From Roseibium sp. (GTDB lineage: Bacteria > Pseudomonadota > Alphaproteobacteria > Rhizobiales > Stappiaceae): a DNA stretch of 33,924 nt. The translations under genes and the position numbers were made by a program. The notes beneath the pieces are model-generated. The model saw only the letters and a program-made list of their open reading frames with translations, had not been told where the DNA came from and did no database searches. This document shows positions 3,008 through 24,848 of the stretch, one piece after another. The stretch lies in contig NZ_JAILWL010000011.1 in the NCBI RefSeq assembly GCF_025698965.1, positions 1 to 33,924 on the forward strand. The letters are read 5' to 3'. Position 1 is the stretch's first letter; every line of letters starts with the position of its first letter.

Positions 3008-3904
3008 CTATCCCGCGACGGCCTGTGCGCTGCGAGCACCATAATAGAGCCCGACAACATGCTCCGCTTCAGCAAAGAAAAGCCAGCGGGAGGCAAATGT
3101 CCCGATCAGATAACAAAGAATCGCAAGCGCTGCCGATACGATCCCCTGGGGCAGAAGGATCAGAACCGCAATCGGCAGAACGATCATGAAGACAAAGGCA
3201 ATCACCCGCAGCTTTTGCGCATGCTTGCGCCCGACCACGTGAACCATCTCCTTCAACAGATAGTTTGTTCCCGTATGCGGTGGTTCAAACAGACGCGCTG
3301 CTCCGATATCGCCCAGTCCGGTCGCACTTTCGATCGTGTGACCCCGCTCTTCAAACCTTCGATCTCCTAGCACCCAGTGCAAAATCTGCACGATCCCGGC
3401 CACCACAAGCAACGCTAAAGCCACTGCACTTTGCTGAGCAAGGATTGCGCCCCCGGCCAGAGACAATGTGAGCAGATGAAGTGGCGTCAGCCAGTGGTTC
3501 CAGCGGGGGACCGTCATGAGTTGCGCATAAATCATCGAAGTCGCCACAACTGTCGCAACTGACAGGGCAGCACCAAGCCAGCCGAGCAACCCGGCGGATA
3601 TGTCCAGAAAAACCGCAGCAAAGGCATATAATCCCATCGCCACCAGCGCCAACGACGAAAGCCACGCTTCTCTTGAAAGCCAGCTGGTCTTCCATTGCGT
3701 GAAGGCTTTCAAAGCCCGCTGCGGATTGCCAAGGTGAAAGGTGGAGGCCACAAGCCCGCCAACGGCCAGCGCAAAAGCAAGGGCGAAATAGAAAAATGCC
3801 TCCCACCCGGTCACCTGCGGCAGGCCAAGGCCCAGAAAACTCAGCAATCCGAACCCGAGACCGGACAGCACGGTAAAGACGATAACGGACGGTGCCGGAT
3901 GCAT
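3008..3904 (-). CDS. soeC: DmsC/NrfD-like membrane anchor subunit, SoeC-type
   Basis: Multi-TM protein; start MHPAPSVIVFTVLSGLGFGLLSF at 3904 overlaps the soeB stop (TGATG). Downstream of Mo and FeS subunits and in the xsc operon. Confidence 0.75.
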   Translation of the reverse strand: MHPAPSVIVFTVLSGLGFGLLSFLGLGLPQVTGWEAFFYFALAFALAVGGLVASTFHLGNPQRALKAFTQWKTSWLSREAWLSSLALVAMGLYAFAAVFLDISAGLLGWLGAALSVATVVATSMIYAQLMTVPRWNHWLTPLHLLTLSLAGGAILAQQSAVALALLVVAGIVQILHWVLGDRRFEERGHTIESATGLGDIGAARLFEPPHTGTNYLLKEMVHVVGRKHAQKLRVIAFVFMIVLPIAVLILLPQGIVSAALAILCYLIGTFASRWLFFAEAEHVVGLYYGARSAQAVAG

Positions 3905-4653
3905 CAGATCGCCTCCAGAGCTTTGTCGAGCCACTTCAGGAACCCTTTCGGCTCCCCGGCGACCGGTTCCAATGCAGGCGATAGAACATCCATGTCGGGC
4001 AGTTGATCCTTGGGACGAGGCGGCAGATACTTGTTTGTCGGCTGTGTCCCCTGTTCGGGCATCAGGTCAAAACCGCCACGTTCGGCCACCAGCATCGAAA
4101 CCTCGCTTGAAGGGTCACCAAGATCACCGAAATGGCGCGCGCCTGCCGGGCAGGTGCGCACACAAGCCGGAATGCGATCTTCCTCCGGCAGGTTCTCGTT
4201 GTAGATACGATCCACACAGAGTGTGCATTTCTTCATGACACCGGCAGCGAGATCCAGTTCCCTCGCGCCATATGGACAAGCCCAGGCGCACAGTCCGCAA
4301 CCGATACAGGCATCCTCTTCCACCAGCACAATGCCATCTTCCTGGCGTTTGTAGCTGGCACCCGTCGGGCACACGGTCACACATGGCGCATCGTCGCAAT
4401 GCAGGCAGGATTTTGGAAAATGCACTGTCTGACTGCAACCGCCGGCCCGCGGTTCGACTTCATAGGAATGGACACGGTTCAGGAAGGTCCCCGATGGATT
4501 GCTGCCATAGGCATCCATATCGCTCAGCGGAGCGCCGTAGTTTTCCGTATTCCAGCCTTTACAGGCGGTCACACAGGCGTGACAGCCGACACATGTGTCC
4601 AGGTCAATGACAAGGCCGAGTTTCTTTTCGCTCGTTTCCGGCAACTGGGTCAT
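3904..4653 (-). CDS. soeB: 4Fe-4S ferredoxin-type electron-transfer subunit, SoeB/DmsB-like
   Basis: CVGCHACVTACK, CLHCDDAPCVTVCPTGA, CIGCGLCAWACPYGA, CTLC...CVRTCP cysteine clusters; ATGA overlap with soeA. Confidence 0.82.
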   Translation of the reverse strand: MTQLPETSEKKLGLVIDLDTCVGCHACVTACKGWNTENYGAPLSDMDAYGSNPSGTFLNRVHSYEVEPRAGGCSQTVHFPKSCLHCDDAPCVTVCPTGASYKRQEDGIVLVEEDACIGCGLCAWACPYGARELDLAAGVMKKCTLCVDRIYNENLPEEDRIPACVRTCPAGARHFGDLGDPSSEVSMLVAERGGFDLMPEQGTQPTNKYLPPRPKDQLPDMDVLSPALEPVAGEPKGFLKWLDKALEAI

Positions 4654-7472
4654 TTGCTCACCTTCTGACGAACCACGGCAGGTCCTTCCCCGACCGGCGA
4701 TTTCAAGGCACCGAAGACGGGCTGGCTCTCCTCTGGTGCTGTCACTTTTTCAATGCGGACGCGAAGATCGAACCAGGCCGCCTGCCCGGTAATCGGGTCG
4801 GAGTTCGCCCATCTCATGCCATCGCCCTTCGATGGCAGCAATTCATGGATCAGGTGGTTCAGAAGAAACCCCTTTGTTGCCTCCGGCGCGTCATCTTCAA
4901 GTGCCCAGGCCCCTTTGCGTTTACCGATGGCATTCCACGTCCAGACGGTGTTTTCGTTGAGCCCGGCCATGTGGGCGACCGGCACCGTGATCTGTCCATG
5001 AATGGATGTCACCTGTGCCCAATCGCCATCTTCAAACCCGTGCTGCTGCCAGATTTTCGTTGGCACATAAAGCGGATTGCGCCCGTGGATCTGCCGCAGC
5101 CAGGCATTCTGACTTCCCCAGGAGTGGTACATCGCCATTGGCCGTTGCGTGAGCGCATGCACCGGGTACTGCTCAGGATCGACCACCGTCTCCTCCAGGA
5201 CCGGATACCAGGTCGGCAACGGATCCAGACACTCAAGGATCTGCTGGCGCAGGTGATCCGGAGGCTGCCGCTCGCCATGTCCCTCCGCTGCAAGTTGCAG
5301 CCGTCTGAGAGGTTCGACATAGAGCTGAAAGAGATAGGGCTGTGGTTTGTCGTAAAATCCGAGGCCGACCGCCCAGTCCTGATAGGCCCGGTTCCAGGGT
5401 TTGTAAAAAGCCGCTTCATCCGGCACATGTTCGACAAAAAAGCTGCCGTTCTCGATGTATTTTTCAAGTTGATCCGGATTGATATCTCCCCGACCGGTCT
5501 TTGTACCGTCGCCACGGAACCCGGCAAGCGGACCGATTCCGGGCCGGCGCTGATGATTGACGATGTAATCGGCATAGTCTTCGTAACGAGCCTCGCCATT
5601 CTCATCGATAAATCCGGGAAGACCGAGCCTCGCTCCCAGATCGATCAGAACTGACTGAAACCCGCGCACGTCCCTGTCCGGTTCGACCACCGGCCAGCGG
5701 ATCGCATCTGCCGCAGCTTCCGCTTCACAGATCGGCCTGTCCAGAAGCGAGATACAGTCATGCCGCTCCAGATAGGTGGTATCGGGCAGGATCAGATCCG
5801 CATAAGCGACCATCTCGGAGGAATAGGCGTCGGAGTAGATGATGCGCGGAATGACATAGTCTCCGTTCTCATCCTTGTCCGTCAGCATTTCCATGACACC
5901 ACGCGTGTTCATGGACGAGTTCCAGGCCATGTTGGCCATATAGAGGAACAGCGTGTCGATCTTGTAGGGGTCGCCCGCATGTGCATTGGAAATGACCATA
6001 TGCATCAGGCCATGCGCTGAGAGCGGATTCTCCCAGGTGAATGCCTTGTCGATCCGCGCGGGAGATCCGTCTTCCTTGAAGGCAAGATCTGCCGGTCCGC
6101 GAACAAAACCAAGATGGGGACCATCAAGCGGACAGTCCGGTTTTGAATGACAATGAGGTGTCGGATGTGCCTCGACCGGCTTCGGGTAAGGCGGCTTGAA
6201 ACGGAACCCGCCAGGGACCTCGACAGTTCCAAGGAGGATTTGCAGGACGTGAAGCGTCCGACAGGTCTGAAAGCCGTTGGAATGCGCTGAAATCCCGCGC
6301 ATGGCATGAAAGCTCACCGGTCTTCCGGTCATCGTCTCATGCCGTTTGCCGCGAAAATCCGTCCAGGGTTGGTCGAGTTCGAATGCTTCTTCAAATGCAA
6401 CCCGGGCCAGTTCGGCGGCGATCGATTTAATGCGCCCGGCGCTGACACCGCATCGCTCGCCAACGGCTTCGGGGCTGTAGTCTTCCGAAAGGAAACGTTC
6501 GGCAAGGTGTTGGAAGACAGTCCGGTGCGTCACCCCGTCCATTTCAACACTGGCTGCCAGATTGGGTTTGACGCCAGGCTCGTCGAACGGTGTTAGCGTG
6601 CCGGTGGTTCGGTCGACAACAAGCGGCTTGCCGTCACTGTCCCGCAGCAGAAGGCCGTTGTCCGGAGACCCGGGTGTCTCGTTGAGCAGACAGGGTGCGT
6701 TGGTAAAGTTTGCAAGATACTTCAGATCTATCTTGCCGGCCTTCAAAAGCAGATGGATCAGCGCGGAAATAAAAAGCCCGTCTGTTCCGGGCGTGATGCC
6801 GACCCATTCGTCGGCGATTGCGTTGTATCCGGAGCGGATCGGATTGACCCCGATCACCTTGCCTCCGCGAGCCTTCAGCTTGCCGAGCCCCATCTTGATC
6901 GGATTGGAATCGTGGTCCTCCGCCACTCCGAAAATCATGAAGAGTTTCGTCCGGTCCCAGTCCGGTTGACCGAATTCCCAGAACGCCCCACCCATGGTGT
7001 AGATACCGGCGGTCGCCATGTTGACCGAGCAGAACCCGCCATGGGCCGCATAGTTCGGAGTACCGAAATTCTGGGCCCAGAAACTCGTAAAACTCTGCGA
7101 CTGATCCCGGCCGGTGAAAAAAGCAAGTTTCTCCGGAGAAGACTTGCGGATCGGCTCAAGCCACAAGGTTGCGATCGACAGTGCTTCGTCCCAGGAGATT
7201 TCCTCGAATTCTCCAGACCCGCGCGGCCCGGTTCGTTTCATCGGTGCACGCAACCGGGACGGTGCATTCACCTGCATTATGCCGGAAGACCCTTTGGCGC
7301 AAAGCACGCCCTTGTTGACGGGATGGTCGCGATTGCCTTCGATATAGGCCACCTTGCCATCTTTCATATGCACGTTGATCCCACATCGGCAGGCGCACAT
7401 GTAACAGGTTGTTTTCCGAACTTCGTCAGACACTTTGGGCGAGGTGTCGAGTGCCCGATCTTCAAAAAACAT
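4650..7472 (-). CDS. soeA: Molybdopterin oxidoreductase catalytic subunit, probably cytoplasmic sulfite dehydrogenase SoeA
   Basis: Start at MFFEDRALDTSPKVSDEVRKTTCYMCACRCGINVHMKDGKVAYIEGN (ATG 7472 overlaps ackA stop); CxxCxxxC FeS motif near the N-terminus, no Tat RR leader, Mo-bisPGD oxidoreductase body; adjacency to xsc supports sulfite as substrate. Confidence 0.78.
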   Translation of the reverse strand: MFFEDRALDTSPKVSDEVRKTTCYMCACRCGINVHMKDGKVAYIEGNRDHPVNKGVLCAKGSSGIMQVNAPSRLRAPMKRTGPRGSGEFEEISWDEALSIATLWLEPIRKSSPEKLAFFTGRDQSQSFTSFWAQNFGTPNYAAHGGFCSVNMATAGIYTMGGAFWEFGQPDWDRTKLFMIFGVAEDHDSNPIKMGLGKLKARGGKVIGVNPIRSGYNAIADEWVGITPGTDGLFISALIHLLLKAGKIDLKYLANFTNAPCLLNETPGSPDNGLLLRDSDGKPLVVDRTTGTLTPFDEPGVKPNLAASVEMDGVTHRTVFQHLAERFLSEDYSPEAVGERCGVSAGRIKSIAAELARVAFEEAFELDQPWTDFRGKRHETMTGRPVSFHAMRGISAHSNGFQTCRTLHVLQILLGTVEVPGGFRFKPPYPKPVEAHPTPHCHSKPDCPLDGPHLGFVRGPADLAFKEDGSPARIDKAFTWENPLSAHGLMHMVISNAHAGDPYKIDTLFLYMANMAWNSSMNTRGVMEMLTDKDENGDYVIPRIIYSDAYSSEMVAYADLILPDTTYLERHDCISLLDRPICEAEAAADAIRWPVVEPDRDVRGFQSVLIDLGARLGLPGFIDENGEARYEDYADYIVNHQRRPGIGPLAGFRGDGTKTGRGDINPDQLEKYIENGSFFVEHVPDEAAFYKPWNRAYQDWAVGLGFYDKPQPYLFQLYVEPLRRLQLAAEGHGERQPPDHLRQQILECLDPLPTWYPVLEETVVDPEQYPVHALTQRPMAMYHSWGSQNAWLRQIHGRNPLYVPTKIWQQHGFEDGDWAQVTSIHGQITVPVAHMAGLNENTVWTWNAIGKRKGAWALEDDAPEATKGFLLNHLIHELLPSKGDGMRWANSDPITGQAAWFDLRVRIEKVTAPEESQPVFGALKSPVGEGPAVVRQKVSK

Positions 7473-8614
7473 CAACAGGGCTCCGTAAGGGACAAGGCAT
7501 TTCTGGCAATCATTTCTTCCTCTTCCGCCGGTACGATCCACACCTCCACCCTGGAATCGGCGGCGTGCAATTTTGCTGAACCAGCCTCGTTGGCCTGTTC
7601 GTCGACGTCAACGCCAAGCCATGAAAGACCTTCAAGAATTGTGGATCTTGCCCTGGCATCGTTTTCCCCGATGCCACCGGTGAAGGCGACGGCGTCCAGA
7701 CCGCCCATTGCCGCAATCATCGAACCGGCATGGCGAATGGCCCAATAGCAAAAGTGTTCGACCGCAAATCGGGATTCTTCGGTGTTGAGAGACTGAAGCT
7801 GACGCATGTCCGAAAACCCGCCGAGCGCCAGCAGACCGCTTTCCTTGTTGAGGATATCCGACGTGCGTTCAACTCCGTGTTCCGCCACCATTTTCAGAAC
7901 GACGTTGCCGTCGATGGATCCGCACCGGGTTCCCATGGTCAGACCTTCCAGTGGGGAATAACCCATCGTCGTCGCAACGGACTTGCCGCGGCGAACCGCA
8001 CACAGGCTGGCACCATTTCCAAGGTGAAGCGCCAACAGCCTTTCCGGCACATCTTTTCCGGAAACGCCAGGGAGCTTGTGCACCAGGCTCTGATAGGAAA
8101 TACCGTGAAACCCGTAGCGCTGCAGCCCGGCTTCGGTTTCACTGTCGGGAATGGCGTAACGCCTGGCAACTTCAGGATTGGTCGCGTGAAATGCCGTGTC
8201 GAAGCTCACGCATTGCGCAAGCTCAGGCGCAATCTCGGCAACTGCCCGAATGGCAGCGAGATTGTGCGGATTGTGAAGCGGTGCCAGCGGAATGCAACGA
8301 TCGATTTCCGCAAGAACATCTTCGTTCACCAGGCAAGGGGCAAGAAGGTTACGTCCACCATGCACCACCCGGTGAGCTGCCGCCCGGAGGCTGGAAAGAG
8401 CAATACCCATTTCTTCCAGCGCCCCGAAAATGGCATCCAGCGCGCTGACATGACTGGGGAGCGACAAGCCCACTCCATGAGTGTCCACGATCAACTTTGA
8501 GGCGCCGCCGATTTCGACAGCGCTCCCATAGGTTTTTTTCGACAAGTCCGCTGCGAACACAGCGAACTTGATCGAGGACGATCCGGAATTCAGGACAAGT
8601 ATGTCTCCCATCAC
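7472..8614 (-). CDS. ackA: Acetate kinase
   Basis: MGDILVLNSGSSSIKFAVF, RVVHGG, FDTAFH, RYGFHGISYQSL, LHLGNGASLCAV, TMGYSPLEGLTMGTRCGSID, FTGGIGENDA are AckA motifs. Confidence 0.95.
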   Translation of the reverse strand: MMGDILVLNSGSSSIKFAVFAADLSKKTYGSAVEIGGASKLIVDTHGVGLSLPSHVSALDAIFGALEEMGIALSSLRAAAHRVVHGGRNLLAPCLVNEDVLAEIDRCIPLAPLHNPHNLAAIRAVAEIAPELAQCVSFDTAFHATNPEVARRYAIPDSETEAGLQRYGFHGISYQSLVHKLPGVSGKDVPERLLALHLGNGASLCAVRRGKSVATTMGYSPLEGLTMGTRCGSIDGNVVLKMVAEHGVERTSDILNKESGLLALGGFSDMRQLQSLNTEESRFAVEHFCYWAIRHAGSMIAAMGGLDAVAFTGGIGENDARARSTILEGLSWLGVDVDEQANEAGSAKLHAADSRVEVWIVPAEEEEMIARNALSLTEPC

Positions 8615-8631
8615 ACTGTCAGGCCTGCCGG

Positions 8632-10410
8632 TCAGGCGCCGGTTTGCGGACGCATGTCGTCAGCCGATATTCCAGCCACTTCCACCGGCTTTTTCATGGC
8701 ATCGCGCCGGAAAGGCTCACCAAGTTCCTGGTTGATCAGCACTTCGATCAAGGTTGTCTTGCCCTGGTTCATCTGCCGGTCGACCGCCTTGTCGAGTTCA
8801 TCCGTCAACTCGGTCATGGTCCGGGCCTGAACGCCTTCCAGTCCACAGGCCTTGGCGATACCGGCGTAGCTGACCTGTTCATCCAGCTCGGTACCGACAA
8901 AGTTGTCATCATACCAGAGTGTCGAGTTGCGCTTCTCCGCACCCCACTGATAGTTCCGGAAAACAACCATGGTGATGGCCGGCCACTCGCTGCGGCCGAT
9001 TGCCGTCAGTTCGGTTACCGCGATCCCGAAGGCGCCGTCCCCGGCAAACCCGACAACCGGCGTGTCCGGGCACCCGATCTTGGCGCCGACGATTGACGGA
9101 AGCCCGTATCCGCACGGCCCGAACAGGCCCGGTGCAAGATACTTCCTGCCCTGTTCGAAGCTTGGGTAGGCGTTGCCAATGGCGCAGTTGTTTCCAATGT
9201 CGGAGCTGATGATCGCTTCTTTCGGCAAGGCCGCCTGAATTGCGCGCCATGCCTTGCGCGGGCTGAGCCAGTCCGGCTTGGCTTCGCGTGCACGCTCGTT
9301 CCAGGTTGTGCCCGGGTCGTCGTCTTCATGATCCATGGACGATAGCTGCTGCGCCCAGCGCGACTTCGTTTGCGAGATGGTGTGCACGCGGTCTTCACGA
9401 CCCTCGTTGCCTGCAGTTGGAGCAAGTTTTTCAAGGATCGCATCAGCGACTTTCTTGGCATCTCCGACAATTCCGACGGAAACTGTTTTGGTCAGGCCGA
9501 TACGGTCGGGGTTAATATCCACCTGAATGATGCTGGCATCCTTCGGCCAGTAGTCGATACCGTATCCGGGCAAAGTGGAGAACGGGTTCAAACGGGTGCC
9601 GAGCGCAAGCACTACATCGGCCTTGGAAATCAACTCCATGCCCGCCTTCGATCCGTTGTAACCGAGCGGTCCCGCAAAGAGCCGGTGTGAGCCCGGGAAT
9701 GCGTCATTGTGCTGATAACCGCAGCAAACCGGAGCATCCAGACGCTCCGCAAGCGCCATGGAAGCCGGGATGGCACCACCGAGAACGACACCCGCACCGT
9801 TGAGGATGACAGGAAACTTTGCCTTGCTCAAAAGCTCGGCAGCTTCCGCAATTGCCGTTGCCCCGCCATCCGGACGCTCGAATTCAACGATCGCCGGAAG
9901 GGCGATGTCGACCACCTGGGTCCAGTAATCGCGCGGGACGTTGATCTGTGCCGGAGCGCTTGCGCGTTTTGCCTGCATGATGACCCGGTTCAGGACCTCA
10001 GCGATGCGGGACGGGTCACGAACTTCTTCCTGATAGGCGACCATATCCTTGAAGAGATCCATCTGCTCGACCTCCTGAAAGCCACCCTGACCTATCGTCT
10101 TGTTGGCAGCCTGAGGCGTGACGAGCAGGAGCGGCGTATGATTCCAGTAAGCCGTCTTGACCGCTGTGACGAAGTTCGTGATTCCCGGACCGTTCTGGGC
10201 GATCATCATGCTCATCTTGCCACTGGCGCGGGTATATCCATCGGCCATCATACCTCCGGAGCACTCATGGGCGCAGTCCCAGAAGTTAATGCCGGCCCGG
10301 GGGAACAGATCGGAAATCGGCATAAACGCCGAACCGATGATTCCAAACGCATGTTCGATACCGTGCGCCTGAAGCACTTTGACGAATGCTTCCTCGGTCG
10401 TCATTTTCAT
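8632..10410 (-). CDS. xsc: Sulfoacetaldehyde acetyltransferase (TPP-dependent)
   Basis: Likely start MKMTTEEAFVKVLQAHGIEHAFGIIGSAFMPISDLFPRAGINFWDCAHECSGGMMADGYTRASG at 10410; IGSAFMPISD and GGFQEVEQMDLFKDMV are Xsc-like; TPP motif GDGAFGIAVTELTAIGRSEWPAITMVVFRN. Confidence 0.95.
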   Translation of the reverse strand: MKMTTEEAFVKVLQAHGIEHAFGIIGSAFMPISDLFPRAGINFWDCAHECSGGMMADGYTRASGKMSMMIAQNGPGITNFVTAVKTAYWNHTPLLLVTPQAANKTIGQGGFQEVEQMDLFKDMVAYQEEVRDPSRIAEVLNRVIMQAKRASAPAQINVPRDYWTQVVDIALPAIVEFERPDGGATAIAEAAELLSKAKFPVILNGAGVVLGGAIPASMALAERLDAPVCCGYQHNDAFPGSHRLFAGPLGYNGSKAGMELISKADVVLALGTRLNPFSTLPGYGIDYWPKDASIIQVDINPDRIGLTKTVSVGIVGDAKKVADAILEKLAPTAGNEGREDRVHTISQTKSRWAQQLSSMDHEDDDPGTTWNERAREAKPDWLSPRKAWRAIQAALPKEAIISSDIGNNCAIGNAYPSFEQGRKYLAPGLFGPCGYGLPSIVGAKIGCPDTPVVGFAGDGAFGIAVTELTAIGRSEWPAITMVVFRNYQWGAEKRNSTLWYDDNFVGTELDEQVSYAGIAKACGLEGVQARTMTELTDELDKAVDRQMNQGKTTLIEVLINQELGEPFRRDAMKKPVEVAGISADDMRPQTGA

Positions 10411-10494
10411 GTCGATTACTCCCGTGAATTCGATGATGTCTGTTCTGCGCAAGCAGTGTTGGCTCTAGTTTTAACTCCCTTTTCCCTCCGTCTC

Positions 10495-10527
10495 TTAGGG
10501 CCAGATTGTAGGCCTTCATATAGCCAG
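10495..10527 (-). promoter_or_regulatory. Candidate TauR direct-repeat operator upstream of xsc
   Basis: Minus-strand CTGGCTATAT (10527-10518) and CTGGCCCTAA (10504-10495), 23 bp start to start; the latter is identical to the box upstream of tauR at 19830. Confidence 0.6.
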
Positions 10528-18052: not shown

Positions 18053-18063
18053 GGCGATCCATT

Positions 18064-18123
18064 CGTGAAAATTTCGAGGATAATTTCACGCGACTCCGTG
18101 AAAAAATCAATCAAAATTTCACG
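18064..18123. promoter_or_regulatory. Symmetric heptamer array CGTGAAA-N13-TTTCACG-N6-CGTGAAA-N13-TTTCACG, candidate XRE-cupin operator
   Basis: Heptamers at 18064-18070, 18084-18090, 18097-18103, 18117-18123; 33-bp repeat unit; begins 12 bp upstream of the XRE-cupin ATG. Confidence 0.7.
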
Positions 18124-18357
18124 GCGAGCCGAAATTCTTTGATCACATCTTGTGGAAGCGCGGCAACGATCGCGCCAAAACAACGCTAAATTGTTGATTT
18201 AAAAAAGGTTTTACTTACTAGGACAATGCAGGACGTGCGATGAAAATTGACGTCTCAATCCGCGCCAGGTCGGCCTCAGTTGGTCAAGGGCCAGACCACT
18301 CAAGCCACTTTTCTTCACATTGGTGTTTCACGCATATCCGCGGCGATCCGCAGTCGC

Positions 18358-19827
18358 TCAGCGGGTCGCCTCACCGACCCTTTTCGCGATCAGTGAAATG
18401 CCTTCGGGAATACGCACCGAAGCGATGGACGAATAGGCCAGTCGGTAGTAGCCGGGCCGTTCCTGACCATTGGCAAAGAAGGCGCGTCCTGGCTCGATGA
18501 GAACACCATCGTCACGCAGGTTGAGAGCCAGTCCGGAACTGTCAATCCCCTCCGGGGCCTTCATCCAGAAGGAGGAACCACCAAATGTGAATTGTCCGGA
18601 CTGGGACAGGCCGTGCTCACTCAGGCACTCTTCCATGATCGACCTGCGTTTACGGTAGATACGCCCCATCCGCGCGATCTGGGCGTCGTAATGACCAAGC
18701 GACAGAAAGTAGGCTGCGGTCCTTTGAATGAGGCCGGGCGGATGGCGCAGAACAAGGGAGCGTAATGCCCGCGCTTCCCGGATAAAGGGTTCCGAAGCAA
18801 CCAGATATCCCAGCCGTAGTCCGGGAAACAGGGACTTGGAGAATGAGCCCACATAGATGACCGATCCGGTCGGATCGAGCGACTTCAGCGCAGGTGATGG
18901 CGACTTTAGGAACGAAATCTCGAATTCGTAGTCGTCTTCAACGATGACAAAGCCCTTGCGTGCAGCAAGTTCCAACAGCCGATGGCGGCGTGAAACAGGC
19001 ATGGTCGCATTGCTCGGGCAATGGTGGCTTGGCGTGGTAAAAACCACATCCAGATCTTCAGGCAGGTTTTCCGGCGGCAGGCCGGCCGCATCGACATCCA
19101 CGGACACGGTATTGCAGCGCGTCTGATTGAGGATCTGCCTGAGACCGGGAAAACAAGGGTTCTCGATCACCGCGCTGCGGCGCTGTGTCAGCAGGATCTG
19201 CGCCGTGATCCAGAGCGCATGCTGAGCGCCCATCGTGATCAGGATTTCTTCAGGGCGCGCGGTGATGCCCCGGCGTGGCAGGATCTGCCGCAGGATAAAC
19301 TCCACCAGCATGGGATCGTCACGTTCGTAGTAATCCGTTGCCAGAATATCGAAGTCCTTCCGACCGACTGCTCTCAGCGCACAGTTTCGCCAATTGTGGT
19401 GATCGAACAATCGGGGGTCGGATTGACCGTAAATGAAAGGATACTTGTAATCCTGCCAATTGGAGGGTCGGACCAGTGGAACATGCTGCGAAAATCTCTG
19501 ACCAATGGCACGGGCCCAATCGATCTGACCGTCTGCCACCTGATCCGGCAAATCGAATTTCGGTCGGCTCGGCGCGGTCTGCGCCACAAAATAACCGGAC
19601 CTGCCTTTTGACACGAGATATTCGTTGGAGACCAACTCAGTATAGGCGATTGTGACCGTTATTCTTGCAACACCAAGATGATCGGCGAGCTTGCGGGTTG
19701 AAGGCATCTTCTCCCCCGGCAGGCAACGGCCGGATAAGATCGCCTCCACGACCAGCCGCTGGATTTGCTGCTGCAAGGTTGTTTCATTGTCAGGCTGAAG
19801 AAAGAACGTCTCCGCCGGTATCGCCAT
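18358..19827 (-). CDS. tauR: MocR-type (GntR HTH + aminotransferase-like) regulator of taurine utilisation
   Basis: N-terminal GntR HTH (LPGEKMPSTRKLADHLGVARITVTIAYTELVSNEYLVSKGRSGYFV), PLP aminotransferase-like domain with YVGSFSKSLFPGLRLGYLV; located between tauABC/tpa and xsc. Confidence 0.88.
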   Translation of the reverse strand: MAIPAETFFLQPDNETTLQQQIQRLVVEAILSGRCLPGEKMPSTRKLADHLGVARITVTIAYTELVSNEYLVSKGRSGYFVAQTAPSRPKFDLPDQVADGQIDWARAIGQRFSQHVPLVRPSNWQDYKYPFIYGQSDPRLFDHHNWRNCALRAVGRKDFDILATDYYERDDPMLVEFILRQILPRRGITARPEEILITMGAQHALWITAQILLTQRRSAVIENPCFPGLRQILNQTRCNTVSVDVDAAGLPPENLPEDLDVVFTTPSHHCPSNATMPVSRRHRLLELAARKGFVIVEDDYEFEISFLKSPSPALKSLDPTGSVIYVGSFSKSLFPGLRLGYLVASEPFIREARALRSLVLRHPPGLIQRTAAYFLSLGHYDAQIARMGRIYRKRRSIMEECLSEHGLSQSGQFTFGGSSFWMKAPEGIDSSGLALNLRDDGVLIEPGRAFFANGQERPGYYRLAYSSIASVRIPEGISLIAKRVGEATR

Positions 19828-19829
19828 GT

Positions 19830-19861
19830 CTGGCCCTAAAGCTTGGGTTATCTGGACCTAT
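19830..19861 (+). promoter_or_regulatory. Candidate TauR direct-repeat operator at the tauR start
   Basis: CTGGCCCTAA (19830-19839) and CTGGACCTAT (19852-19861), 22 bp start to start, immediately upstream of the tauR start codon (19827) and in opposite orientation to the gene. Confidence 0.6.
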
Positions 19862-20004: not shown

Positions 20005-21384
20005 TTATCCAAAGACCCGCGTCAACGCACCGTCAATTGCATCCGTGATCTGATCGATGTCATCCGAGGTCGCAATCAAGGCCGGAGACAGACACAGGGT
20101 GTTGTTGAGGCCAGGCAAAGAGCGGTTGGTTGCGCCGATGATCACGCCCTGCGACGCGCAGTCTCCGACAACGGCCTGCACGAGTTTTTCTGCCACCGGC
20201 TCCTTCGTGGCCCGATCTGCAACAAGTTCAGCTCCGCAGAACAACCCCTTGCCCCGGACATCGCCAATGGCCTGATGCTTTTCCATGAGCACGTGCAGAT
20301 TGCTCACAAGACGCTCACCCATGGCCGTGGTGTTGTCCAGAAGGCCTTCGTCCTCGATGATCCGCATGTTTTCAAGCGCGGCTGCCGGACCCGCCGTGCA
20401 CCCGCCAAAAGTTGAAATATCCCGGAAATGGTTCAGCGGATCGCCTGCGTCATCCTTGAACAGGTCGAATACCCGTTCCGTCGTCACCATGCAGGCAATT
20501 GCCGCGTAGCCGGAAGCAACGCCTTTTGCCATGGTCACGAAATCCGGTTCGATCCCGTAATGCTGGTACCCGAACCATTTTCCGGTTCGGCCGACGCCAC
20601 ACACAACTTCATCGATATGCAACAGGATCTCGTATTTGCGGCAGATTTCCTGAACACGCTGCCAATATCCCTCGGGCGGCGTAATGACACCGCCACCGGC
20701 AGTCACCGGTTCGAGGCAAAGCGCACCGACGGTGTCCGGACCTTCGCGCAGGATCACTTCTTCAATGGCGTCGGCCGCCCGCTCGCCATAGTTTTCGACA
20801 TCCCACTGCGCCCTGTATTCACAACAATGCGGCACTTCAACAAAGCCCGGTGTATAGGGACCGTATTGCGCATTCCGCTCCGGCTGACCACCGGCTGAGA
20901 TCGCAGTGATAGAGGAGCCATGGTAATCCCGCTCGCGGAACAGGATCTTGTGCTTCTTGCCACCGTAACGCTTGTGGGCAATCTGCCGGACAAGCTTGAA
21001 CGCCTTCTCGTTGGCTTCGGTTCCCGAGTTGGTCAGGTAGACCCGGCTCATGCCCGGCATCTTCGAGATCAGACGTTCGGAGAACAGAGCACCGGGAATG
21101 GAGCCTGCCGAATTGGCAAAATAGTTCAGTTTCACCAATTGGTCGCGAACAGCGTCGGCAATGGATTCGCGGCCATAGCCGACATTGACGGTCCACACGC
21201 CCCCGGAGACAGCATCGAGATGTTCCTTGCCGGTGGCATCCCAGAGCCGCATGCCCTTTCCTTCCACCATGATCTTGGGATCGACGGTCTCCAGCGATTT
21301 GTGCTGGAGCAAGTGATGCCAGACATGGGTGCGGTCGGCCTCAATGATATCGCTCATGTCATTCGGGGCTGCTGCAATGTTCAT
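20005..21384 (-). CDS. tpa: Taurine--pyruvate aminotransferase (class III)
   Basis: Likely start MNIAAAPNDMSDIIEADRTHVWHHLLQHKSLE; class-III motifs YLTNSGTEANEKAFKLVRQ, LHIDEVVCGVGRTGKWFGYQHYGIEPDFVTMAKGVASGYAAI; adjacent to tauABC and tauR. Confidence 0.92.
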   Translation of the reverse strand: MNIAAAPNDMSDIIEADRTHVWHHLLQHKSLETVDPKIMVEGKGMRLWDATGKEHLDAVSGGVWTVNVGYGRESIADAVRDQLVKLNYFANSAGSIPGALFSERLISKMPGMSRVYLTNSGTEANEKAFKLVRQIAHKRYGGKKHKILFRERDYHGSSITAISAGGQPERNAQYGPYTPGFVEVPHCCEYRAQWDVENYGERAADAIEEVILREGPDTVGALCLEPVTAGGGVITPPEGYWQRVQEICRKYEILLHIDEVVCGVGRTGKWFGYQHYGIEPDFVTMAKGVASGYAAIACMVTTERVFDLFKDDAGDPLNHFRDISTFGGCTAGPAAALENMRIIEDEGLLDNTTAMGERLVSNLHVLMEKHQAIGDVRGKGLFCGAELVADRATKEPVAEKLVQAVVGDCASQGVIIGATNRSLPGLNNTLCLSPALIATSDDIDQITDAIDGALTRVFG

Positions 21385-21533
21385 GGCAATGTCCTTTCGT
21401 ATTTCATCGTCATGCGCAAAGATTTCAGAGAGTTCGAACGCGGTCAGGTCTTGCTCGCAAATGGGCAATTGCACATTATTGAAACAAGGAACTGCTGGTT
21501 TCGAGATCAGACTGCACGGCCCGACAGCGACAT

Positions 21534-21566
21534 ATAGGGCCAGATCTGGAATTACGTTAGATCCAG
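21534..21566 (-). promoter_or_regulatory. Candidate TauR direct-repeat operator between tpa and tauA
   Basis: Minus-strand CTGGATCTAA (21566-21557) and CTGGCCCTAT (21543-21534), 23 bp start to start; same motif as at xsc and tauR. Confidence 0.6.
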
Positions 21567-21700
21567 TCGAGTGTTTTTATTGTCACAGCGTCTTTCTGCC
21601 GTAACCATTTTTACCACGCAGGTTAGCCGAATTACACAAATGGCATAAGACGGGAAAACCCGCACACCTGCATTCCAACCAGGGAACAGTGGGAATAACA

Positions 21701-22702
21701 ATGACCATCAAATCAAAGTTTTTGAGCACACTGGCTGCTTTGTCCTTCGTGGGCAGTGTCCAGGTCGCTTCCGCCGCAGACGAACTGACTGTCGCCTACT
21801 TCCTCGAATGGCCCATGCCGTTCCAGTATGCCAAGGCAACCGGCATGTATGACGAGGCCCTCGGCGTGCCCGTCACCTGGGTGTCGTTCGATACCGGCAC
21901 CGCCATGTCGGCAGCGATGGCGTCAGGAGACGTCCAGATCGCCGTCAGTCAGGGCATTCCTCCCTTCGTCGTCGCAACCTCCGCCGGTCAGGATCTGGTC
22001 CTCACGGATATCGCTGTCAGCTACTCCGAAAACGACAACTGCGTGGTTGCCGAAACTCTTGAAATCGAGAAAGGCAATGCGAAGGAGCTTGAAGGCAAGA
22101 AAGTTGGCGTTCCGATCGGCACAGCAGCGCACTTCGGTTTCCTTGAGCAAATGAAACACTTCGATGTCGACGTTTCGACCATGGAAATCGTCGACATGGC
22201 GCCTGCGGATGGCGCTGCTGCATTTGCCCAGGGCAACCTGGACATGGTGTGTGGCTGGGGTGGTGCGCTGCGTCGCATGAAAGAGCATGGCAACGTTCTC
22301 TTGACCGGTGCGGAAAAGGAAGAGCTCGGCATTCTCGTATTTGACGGCATCAGTGTTCCTGCTGATTTCGCCTCCGAGGAAAGTGAACTTCTGACCAAGT
22401 TCCTTAAAGTAACCGCAGACGCCAATGCCATGTGGAATGCCGGTGACAAAAAGGCTGAAATGCTCGAAGTCATTGCAAAAGACGCCGGTATGGATCCGGC
22501 TGACGCAGAAGCTTCGCTCTCAACCTTCACCTTCCCTTCTGTCGATGAAGCCTTGAGCGACAAATGGATGGGTGGAAACGTCCAGAGCTTCATGCTGGGT
22601 GTTGCCAAGGTCTTCCAGGATGCCGGCTCCATCCCGCAGGCGCTTGACACCTATGTCGACACGGTCGACTCCAGCCATCTGGCCGCGACCAAGAGCCAGT
22701 AA
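21701..22702 (+). CDS. tauA: Taurine ABC transporter substrate-binding protein
   Basis: Signal peptide MTIKSKFLSTLAALSFVGSVQVASAADELTVAYFLEWPMPFQYAKATG; SBP fold, upstream of tauBC and divergent from tpa. Confidence 0.88.
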   Translation: MTIKSKFLSTLAALSFVGSVQVASAADELTVAYFLEWPMPFQYAKATGMYDEALGVPVTWVSFDTGTAMSAAMASGDVQIAVSQGIPPFVVATSAGQDLVLTDIAVSYSENDNCVVAETLEIEKGNAKELEGKKVGVPIGTAAHFGFLEQMKHFDVDVSTMEIVDMAPADGAAAFAQGNLDMVCGWGGALRRMKEHGNVLLTGAEKEELGILVFDGISVPADFASEESELLTKFLKVTADANAMWNAGDKKAEMLEVIAKDAGMDPADAEASLSTFTFPSVDEALSDKWMGGNVQSFMLGVAKVFQDAGSIPQALDTYVDTVDSSHLAATKSQ

Positions 22703-22723
22703 CACGCATTTCCTGCATTACGT

Positions 22724-22745
22724 GGGGCGGCCACCCGGCCGCCCC
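22724..22745 (+). terminator. Intercistronic GC hairpin between tauA and tauB
   Basis: GGGGCGGCC-accc-GGCCGCCCC perfect 9-bp stem followed by ATTCTTTC; likely attenuates or stabilises the upstream tauA mRNA. Confidence 0.65.
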
Positions 22746-22782
22746 ATTCTTTCAACGCTCAAGCTGCAGGAGACGGCAGGCT

Positions 22783-23589
22783 ATGGACGGCCTTCACATT
22801 GAAAATCTATCCATGCGTTTCGATTTGCCCAACGGAACGTATGTTCAGGCTCTGGAAGATGTTTCGATCGAACTCGGCACTGGCGAGATCATGTCGGTTC
22901 TGGGACCATCAGGATGCGGCAAGACCACGCTTTTGAACATCGTCGCAGGATTTCTCGCCCCGACCAGTGGCCAGGTGCGCATGAATGGTCACGTGGTAAC
23001 CGGACCTGGCGCCGAGCGCGGAATGGTTTTCCAGAAAGGGGCATTGTTTGAATGGATGAACGTTCGCAGGAACGTTGAATTCGGCCCCAGAATGAAGTCG
23101 ATGCCAAAAGGAGAGCGCGACGATATCGTCGACCATTTGCTTGAAACGGTCGGACTACAGGATTTCAAGGAAAAAGCGGTTTATGAACTTTCCGGAGGCA
23201 TGCAGCAGCGTGTTGCTCTGGCACGCTGCCTCGCCAATGACCCGGACGTCATACTGATGGACGAACCGCTCGGAGCGCTGGACGCCCTGACGCGGGAAAA
23301 GATGCAAGGACTGGTCCTGAAGCTCTGGAAGGAGACCGGCAAGACGGTGATCCTCATCACCCACTCGGTTGAGGAAGCCCTGCTGCTGGGTGAAAGGCTC
23401 CTGGTGATGGCTCCCCGTCCTGGCCGCATTCACAAGGAATACCGTCTTCCCTTTGCAGAACGCGGGGTTCTTGCCGATCTGCGAGAAGTCAAGAAAAGCG
23501 AAGGATTTGCCGAGACTCGGGAAGAAATCCTGTCGATGATCTGGGAAATGGAAGAGGAAATCATGGGCCGATCGGAGACCGCAGCATGA
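22783..23589 (+). CDS. tauB: Taurine ABC transporter ATP-binding protein
   Basis: Walker A GPSGCGKTT, signature LSGGMQQRVALARCLANDPDVILMDEPLGALD. Confidence 0.93.
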   Translation: MDGLHIENLSMRFDLPNGTYVQALEDVSIELGTGEIMSVLGPSGCGKTTLLNIVAGFLAPTSGQVRMNGHVVTGPGAERGMVFQKGALFEWMNVRRNVEFGPRMKSMPKGERDDIVDHLLETVGLQDFKEKAVYELSGGMQQRVALARCLANDPDVILMDEPLGALDALTREKMQGLVLKLWKETGKTVILITHSVEEALLLGERLLVMAPRPGRIHKEYRLPFAERGVLADLREVKKSEGFAETREEILSMIWEMEEEIMGRSETAA

Positions 23590-24848
23590 CCGGACTTATC
23601 GTTTTCCTCATATATGCGTCTCTGTTCATTGCGGCGTACTTTCTCGTCACCTATGTCACCGGGCTTAGCCAGCGACGGCAGGATTTCACCAGCCTCAAGA
23701 CAGTGACGTTCGGCGACGAAAGTGCGATCCGTCCAAACCGTGCGGCGTCCATCATCTCGATCGTCGTGATCTTCTTCATTTGGGGCGCGTTCACCGGATC
23801 AAGCCTGGTGCCCTTTCATGTTCCAGGTCCGTTTGTCGGTGAGACCAACTTCACCTACACGGTTACAAATGAAGCCGGACAGACCAACGAAGCTTCCGTC
23901 AATGTTGTGGTGCACGAAGTCGGCAACAAGATAAAAGCACCTGAACCGCCTCCCAACGATGGTTTCGCTCAAAACGATTCCGCAAGCGTCGGGGCCTGGA
24001 GATCCGTGCTGTTGAAGGTCGCACGAAACGACGGTGACGGTGCCAAGGTAACCGCCGTTGACGGAACGCCGATCGCTCCGGGTGAAAACGTACGCGTTGC
24101 GAATGGAACCGTCACCATGACGGCAAAAGGCTCGCTGAACTTTCAGCCCGATACCGGTTTGCAGATGGAGCCGATTTGGATGCCGTCTCCAGAAGCCGTG
24201 GTGGAGCGTTTCATCAGCATCGCCTCCGAAGGTTATCAGAACTTTACTTTGTGGGAGCATTTGGGCTGGTCGCTCATCCGGGTTATCGGTGGTTTTATCG
24301 CAGGTTCTCTCATCGGGATTCCACTTGGATACGCAATGGGTCTTTCAAGTTGGGTCCGTGGCTGGTTCGATCCGATTGTTGAATTCATGCGTCCGGTTCC
24401 GCCGCTCGCCTTGATCCCTCTTGTCATCATCTGGTTCGGCATCTGGGAAACCGGCAAGATCGTATTGCTGTTCCTTGCAGCCCTCTGGATCATGACGATT
24501 GCGGCAAGAGCAGGTGTCTCCGGGGTCAACATCTCCAAAGTTCACGCTGCCTATTCGCTGGGTGCCAACAAGCGCCAGGTGCTCAGATACGTTATTGTGC
24601 CGAACTCGCTTCCCGAAATCTTTACCGGAGCACGAGTTGCGATGGGCGTTTGCTGGGGAACGGTCGTTGCCGCCGAACTGGTCGCCGCGCAAAAAGGTGC
24701 GGGGATGATGATCATCGCAGCCTCGAAGTTTCAGCTCACCGATATCGTTATCATGGGCATCATTCTTATCGGGATTGTCGGCTACAGCATCGACATCCTG
24801 ATGCGTATGGCCGAACGGGTCCTGGTGCCTTGGAAAGGCCGTTCATAA
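23586..24848 (+). CDS. tauC: Taurine ABC transporter permease with periplasmic beta-rich insert
   Basis: C-terminal BPD-type permease (EHLGWSLIRVIGGFIAGSLIGIPLGYAMGLSSWVRGWFDPIVEFMRPVPPLALIPLVIIWFG); ATGA overlap with tauB; N-terminal two TM segments and insert at aa 83-191. Confidence 0.9.
   Translation: MTGLIVFLIYASLFIAAYFLVTYVTGLSQRRQDFTSLKTVTFGDESAIRPNRAASIISIVVIFFIWGAFTGSSLVPFHVPGPFVGETNFTYTVTNEAGQTNEASVNVVVHEVGNKIKAPEPPPNDGFAQNDSASVGAWRSVLLKVARNDGDGAKVTAVDGTPIAPGENVRVANGTVTMTAKGSLNFQPDTGLQMEPIWMPSPEAVVERFISIASEGYQNFTLWEHLGWSLIRVIGGFIAGSLIGIPLGYAMGLSSWVRGWFDPIVEFMRPVPPLALIPLVIIWFGIWETGKIVLLFLAALWIMTIAARAGVSGVNISKVHAAYSLGANKRQVLRYVIVPNSLPEIFTGARVAMGVCWGTVVAAELVAAQKGAGMMIIAASKFQLTDIVIMGIILIGIVGYSIDILMRMAERVLVPWKGRS

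Follow-up and report, generated by a model that had tools for sequence, protein, structure and literature searches.

A probable palindromic double operator of an XRE-cupin regulator at the head of an N-demethylation unit in Roseibium

Characterised XRE-cupin regulators are local repressors of adjacent genes that bind core-promoter palindromes of 15-25 bp near the -10 element (PMC7901475, PMC12724383). The Pseudomonas proteins PsdR, PauR, ErfA, PA0535, PA1359, PA1884 and PA4987 share a helix-turn-helix (HTH) plus cupin architecture, a palindromic dimer site in the core promoter, adjacent metabolic targets and a very small number of targets (PMC7901475). DbuR of Pseudomonas putida, also an XRE-cupin protein, protects a palindrome that covers the -10 element of its target, a catabolic operon (PMC12724383), and PuuR of E. 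coli is an XRE-cupin protein that leaves the DNA on sensing putrescine (PMC7901475). The family does not guarantee the sign of regulation, since the XRE-family protein NceR is reported to be an activator of ompA (PMC10470515). In Alphaproteobacteria the MocR-family protein TauR governs tauABC, tpa, xsc, ackA and bisC/dmsC/hybA-type genes, and its sites are direct repeats of CTGGACYTAA (PMC5320631).

Here we describe a locus from Roseibium sp. within a window of 33,924 nucleotides, the whole stretch of DNA that was analysed. By its gene content, the locus appears to combine taurine dissimilation with an N-demethylation module (Table 1). We propose that the repeat block at 18064-18123 is, very probably, a double operator by which an XRE-cupin regulator represses its own gene together with DMGDH1-MttB-DMGDH2, and that a ligand of the pathway releases this repression. 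All sequence-level features by which a protein would be placed with the Pseudomonas and DbuR repressors are found here, and by analogy the regulator should work as they do. The locus differs from the Pseudomonas systems in its consensus (TGAAA-N13-TTTCA), in its alphaproteobacterial demethylation genes, in a mostly doubled site with the -35 element in one palindrome and the -10/start region at the other, and in a unit headed by the regulator's own gene; repression is here something we infer. DbuR differs in its single 20-bp palindrome (AATTCTCATATATTAGAATT), its divergent gene arrangement and its D-amino-acid genes.

Table 1 Features of the Roseibium locus in window coordinates
Feature	Position	Strand	Remarks
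Taurine-dissimilation unit	3008..10452	-	xsc 10452->8632, acetate kinase 8614->7472, SoeABC-like molybdo-oxidoreductase 7541->3008
TauR-type direct repeat, 23-bp period	10495..10527	-	upstream of xsc; consensus from PMC5320631
DMGDH-like demethylase 2 (DMGDH2), 815 aa	10941..13388	-	39 bp after MttB gene; closes close-packed unit
MttB-superfamily methyltransferase, 518 aa	13428..14984	-	below pyrrolysine-MttB cut-off; 45 bp after DMGDH1
DMGDH-like demethylase 1 (DMGDH1), 813 aa	15030..17471	-	DAO + FAO_M + GCV_T + GCV_T_C; 23 bp after regulator; FAD/folate type
XRE-cupin transcriptional regulator, 185 aa	17495..18052	-	HTH_31/HTH_3 + Cupin_2
Putative proximal operator (site 1)	18064..18090	-	minus-strand sequence CGTGAAATTATCCTCGAAATTTTCACG; overlaps putative -10 and transcription start
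Putative -10 region, GAAATT	18082..18087	-	17 bp after -35; weak match to sigma-70 consensus
Putative distal operator (site 2), CGTGAAA-N13-TTTCACG	18097..18123	-	minus-strand sequence CGTGAAATTTTGATTGATTTTTTCACG; contains -35-like TTGATT
Putative -35, TTGATT	18105..18110	-	inside distal site, offset 11-16 of 23-bp core
MocR-type regulator, TauR-like	18358..19827	-	directly upstream of XRE-cupin gene
TauR-type direct repeat, 22-bp period	19830..19861	+	adjoins tauR start
Class III aminotransferase, Tpa-like	20005..21474	-	
TauR-type direct repeat, 23-bp period	21534..21566	-	between tpa and tauA
tauABC-like taurine ABC transporter	21689..24848	+	divergent

The repeat block and the regulator

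The first-pass annotation had described four exact heptamers in alternating orientation with a 33-bp unit, and its coordinates were all confirmed in the window. CGTGAAA lies at 18064-18070 and 18097-18103 and TTTCACG at 18084-18090 and 18117-18123, making up two perfect 27-bp CGTGAAA-N13-TTTCACG palindromes, and the ATG of the XRE-cupin gene, read on the minus strand, follows after 11 bases (18053-18063). These two copies are the only matches to the 27-bp palindrome in the window with up to three mismatches allowed, and a pattern search of the 6.36-Mb genome returned two perfect copies, both in the block. A fifth TTTCACG at 18326, which had been attached to the same system, is indeed present; its role in the operator fell away, as it is one of six heptamer occurrences outside the block and has no N13 partner in the window scan with up to three mismatches. 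We therefore rejected it as background that needs no special explanation.

The regulator carries an N-terminal Cro/C1-type HTH (HTH_31, 3.4e-13) and a C-terminal cupin (Cupin_2, 1.2e-11). Its predicted fold would place helices in the N-terminal part and a set of strands in the C-terminal part, with 1y9q, an HTH_3 regulator, as the best PDB match. The best NCBIfam match is PuuR (NF007408), yet the 48.8 bits obtained fall far under the equivalog cut-off of 211 and an identification as PuuR was rejected. The methylamine regulators known from Roseobacter, TmaR and TmoR, are of the AraC and GntR type and were set aside as candidates. In an alignment read by eye, the aligned region (RPTQELAYIVSG and YRWENP) lacks the ligands of a metal cupin (HxH...E and the His of the second motif). 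Among 32 sequences T129, E131, W166 and N168 are invariant, and a conserved His is absent from that cupin region. The pocket, with conserved residues that include E131, W166 and N168, is apparently metal-less, and we suggest only that it would suit an organic ligand.

Conservation, number and spacing of the sites

Orthologues of the regulator share 45-69% identity within the same order, followed by a gap down to about 41%. A scan of genome contigs contributed a further 80 named loci, largely from the Roseobacter group and Stappiaceae, and the footprint set comprised 109 upstream regions (95 non-redundant), each scanned over 250 bp upstream of the gene. Conservation in orthologous promoters was a point on which the first-pass annotation had let its operator stand or fall, and the footprint came out firmly in favour: an exact TGAAA-N13-TTTCA is present in 92 of the 95 non-redundant promoters compared to a mean of 0.12 and a maximum of 2 in shuffled sets, and the remaining three match with one mismatch allowed. 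Such sites recur in more than 100 related bacteria, and even a 53%-identity orthologue on a short contig carries the motif. Upstream of 17 paralogues (31-43% identity) no TGAAA-N13-TTTCA was found with up to one mismatch. Across the 95 promoters N13 is the sole dominant inverted spacing, the others being far behind. The profile of 148 sites reads C-R-TGAAA-W-W-N9-W-W-TTTCA-Y-G and holds about 30 bits over 31 positions; the invariance of TGAAA and TTTCA is built in, as the search required them, but it left the R, W and Y positions free, and these are near-absolute too. On sequence grounds the earlier assignment of the block to the adjacent XRE-cupin gene thus appears sound, because the motif tracks the orthologous group, is missing from paralogues and overlies the gene's promoter.

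Two 41%-identity paralogues have inverted repeats of their own upstream, similar in geometry and place, TAAAAA-N12-TTTTTA (L168) and CTAAAA-N14-TTTTAG (L185), possibly diverged operators of sister regulators. In one record titled Nocardioides marinus, the name of an actinobacterium (L117, JAHVJD010000003.1), regulator and operator group with Ruegeria/Phaeobacter, and the record is probably mislabelled.

The fourfold symmetry, which had been taken as the functional unit, did not survive this comparison. One site is found in 32 of the 95 promoters and two or more in the other 63; the conserved element is the single N13 pair, and the central TTTCACG-N6-CGTGAAA occurs only in the 33-bp class, for which reason we rejected the N6 pair as a dimer site. 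As read from these alignments, the functional unit is one putative dimer site, C-R-TGAAA-WW-N9-WW-TTTCA-Y-G, and its doubling, which gives the fourfold symmetry, is lineage-specific.

The distance between sites is most often 39 bp (n=38), followed by 33 (n=7), 34 (n=5) and 36 bp (n=4), and 30 bp also occurs. In a FastTree protein tree the spacing classes cluster by clade: the window's regulator falls with Roseibium, Pseudovibrio and others into a group of 32-34-bp spacing, the 39-bp spacing belongs to the Roseobacter group and a separate same-order family (f24), and the earliest branches have single-site promoters. The first-pass annotation had further proposed cooperative, DNA-phased autoregulation, which we considered as a key mechanism in which two helically phased dimers bind cooperatively through the DNA. 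The tight spacing inside clades, 32-34 bp in that of the window and, for the majority of the Roseobacter clade, 38-40 bp, and the number of promoters with at least two sites are what such binding would lead one to expect. A spacing of 33 or 34 bp corresponds to 3.1-3.2 turns and one of 39 bp to 3.7 turns, however, a difference of about 0.6 helical turn that puts the sites on clearly different sides of the helix and lends no support to a shared phased contact. With spacing constrained only within clades, no helical phase is conserved between the two sites; a third of the set has one site only, and the spacing may be explained equally well by the overlap with the -35 and -10 elements. We consider phased cooperativity unlikely as the key mechanism.

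In five upstream regions (L027, L102, L119, L108 and L177) two operator copies overlap with a 12-bp offset (TGAAA-N7-TGAAA ... TTTCA-N7-TTTCA), an alternative way of doubling the site.

Promoter overlap and the sign of regulation

We then related the sites to the promoter. A sigma-70 consensus prediction called no promoter here, and the -10 hexamers are poor compared to the E. coli consensus; the -35 and -10 assignments in the window are accordingly drawn from conservation. Among 45 two-site promoters with spacings of 33, 34 or 39 bp, 41 carry a TTG within the distal site, at offset 11 or 12, the exceptions being the three 34-bp cases and one 39-bp case. The 39-bp class has a conserved CATCGT exactly 17 bp after the distal TTG and abutting the proximal site, and several early-branching single-site promoters read TTGACA/TTGCAT-N17-AATATT/AATATA with the -10 inside the palindrome. 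The exact match in 92 of the 95 promoters and the overlap of sites with -35- and -10-like elements are, at the level of sequence, the features of a palindromic dimer site within the core promoter. A distal site on the -35-like TTG and a proximal site overlapping or abutting the -10 fit promoter occlusion, that is, autorepression.

In the mechanism we propose, each CGTGAAA-N13-TTTCACG palindrome would bind one regulator dimer, the distal dimer lying over the -35 and the proximal one over the -10 and start region. As the dimers would cover both elements, the bound regulator would exclude RNA polymerase and repress not only its own gene but also the demethylation unit that runs in the same direction, and a small molecule of the pathway, possibly an N-methylated taurine or glycine, would enter the cupin pocket and bring about release of the repressor. 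From the same sites the regulator could instead activate the demethylation unit, or regulate it in a dual manner; in favour of this, the weak -10 hexamers, as found at activator-dependent promoters, and the precedent of NceR might be cited. The position of the sites, which cover the -35 and -10/+1 and do not lie upstream of the -35, speaks against activation, as do the characterised Pseudomonas XRE-cupin targets, which are upregulated in regulator mutants (PMC7901475), and we regard this alternative as improbable.

The unit under repression probably consists of the regulator, the two DMGDH-like demethylases and the MttB-like methyltransferase, with a 488-bp gap between the DMGDH2 gene and xsc. 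Co-directional DMGDH genes lie 3' of the regulator gene in nearly all orthologous loci; in many Roseobacter loci other genes stand between regulator and DMGDH1, so the extent of the operon varies. In two loci (L058 and L062) the match to DMGDH1 is broken up into two or three segments, for which frameshifts or assembly errors may be the cause.

Two regulatory modules and the possible ligand

The first-pass annotation had placed the whole demethylase operon under the XRE-cupin protein. Control of the entire locus by this operator does not agree with the distribution of TauR-type repeats, since xsc-ackA-soe-like, tauR, tpa and tauABC carry these instead. Exactly three pairs of TauR-type repeats were found in the window and none in 20 Markov simulations, and the tau regions of several relatives hold matching pairs. 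The taurine-dissimilation unit is therefore probably outside XRE-cupin control, and two regulatory modules seem to share the locus, an XRE-cupin one for demethylation and a TauR one for taurine. The three-subunit molybdo-enzyme of that unit is similar to the sulfite dehydrogenase SoeABC, a name we base on subunit make-up and context. In the TauC-like permease (23586-24848), a protein of 420 aa, some 200 residues precede the permease domain, with a weak Big_9 match at 127-191. L035, L041 and L052 have forms of similar length, and in L047, L050 and L051 only 226 residues align.

With a MocR gene immediately upstream of the block (18358-19827), the sites might be owned by another regulator such as this TauR-like protein. 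TauR sites are direct repeats and not palindromes, and at the XRE-cupin promoter (18053-18357) no direct repeats of CTGGACYTAA were found; the palindrome, in turn, tracks the XRE-cupin orthologue even where no TauR-like gene was found nearby. TauR was therefore rejected as owner of the block, and ownership by any other regulator is very improbable.

The XRE-cupin regulator, our preferred owner, looks local. In its own genome, pattern searches with the strict RTGAAAWW-N9-WWTTTCAY gave two matches, both at 18064-18123, and no wider regulon at that pattern; 22 orthologue genomes have 0-3 matches each, with at least one in 20. Two sites in 6.36 Mb and the linkage to DMGDH genes would thus describe a regulator with adjacent metabolic targets and few other genomic sites. 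A near-identical 25-mer, ATGAAAATGGYGARTTTTATTTCAT, matches the motif away from the regulator at G148:C46:64508, G083:C86:2228 and G057:C107:5284 and is conserved. A chance repeat or low-complexity AT sequence, to which only the AT-rich palindrome arms might point, is virtually discounted by 92 of 95 orthologous promoters against 0.12 by shuffling and by a backward-read control of the strict motif that gave no matches in the regulator's own genome.

As for the ligand, tauABC-like or xsc genes lie in 9 of 20 same-order orthologous loci (fetched stretches of 12-19 kb). In Roseobacter loci DMGDH1 and DMGDH2 accompany the regulator, and the loci read in detail also hold a homocysteine S-methyltransferase of the kind named MtgE in a glycine betaine study. 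On the strength of these linkages, the inducer may be N-methylated taurine, dimethylglycine, sarcosine or a shared product. It is possible, and we put this forward tentatively, that the regulator is a dedicated sensor of a taurine-betaine/N-methylated-taurine pathway in marine Alphaproteobacteria, in which the MttB-like and the two DMGDH-like enzymes would remove three N-methyl groups under XRE-cupin control and taurine would then be dissimilated under TauR, a two-step relay in one locus. The nine loci with taurine genes support this reading; for some Roseobacter orthologues, a nearby mtgE-like gene speaks for glycine betaine. In the literature searched on taurine betaine, dimethyltaurine and N-methyltaurine we found no genes or regulation, nor did we find in the papers searched one that names this XRE-cupin regulator or its operator. 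A glycine betaine study of 2025 on these bacteria (PMC12478193) does not mention XRE and has the word "regulator" only in a reference title.

The operator type is already known from XRE-cupin local repressors; what is new is the definition of an operator, most likely for autorepression, for a methylated-osmolyte regulator on which we found no study. The regulator is widespread in the Roseobacter group and Stappiaceae and sits on N-demethylation genes for methylated osmolytes of the glycine betaine or taurine type. Its sharply defined operator leads to a testable regulon and a reporter design, and reveals what appear to be two interleaved regulatory modules in one taurine locus.
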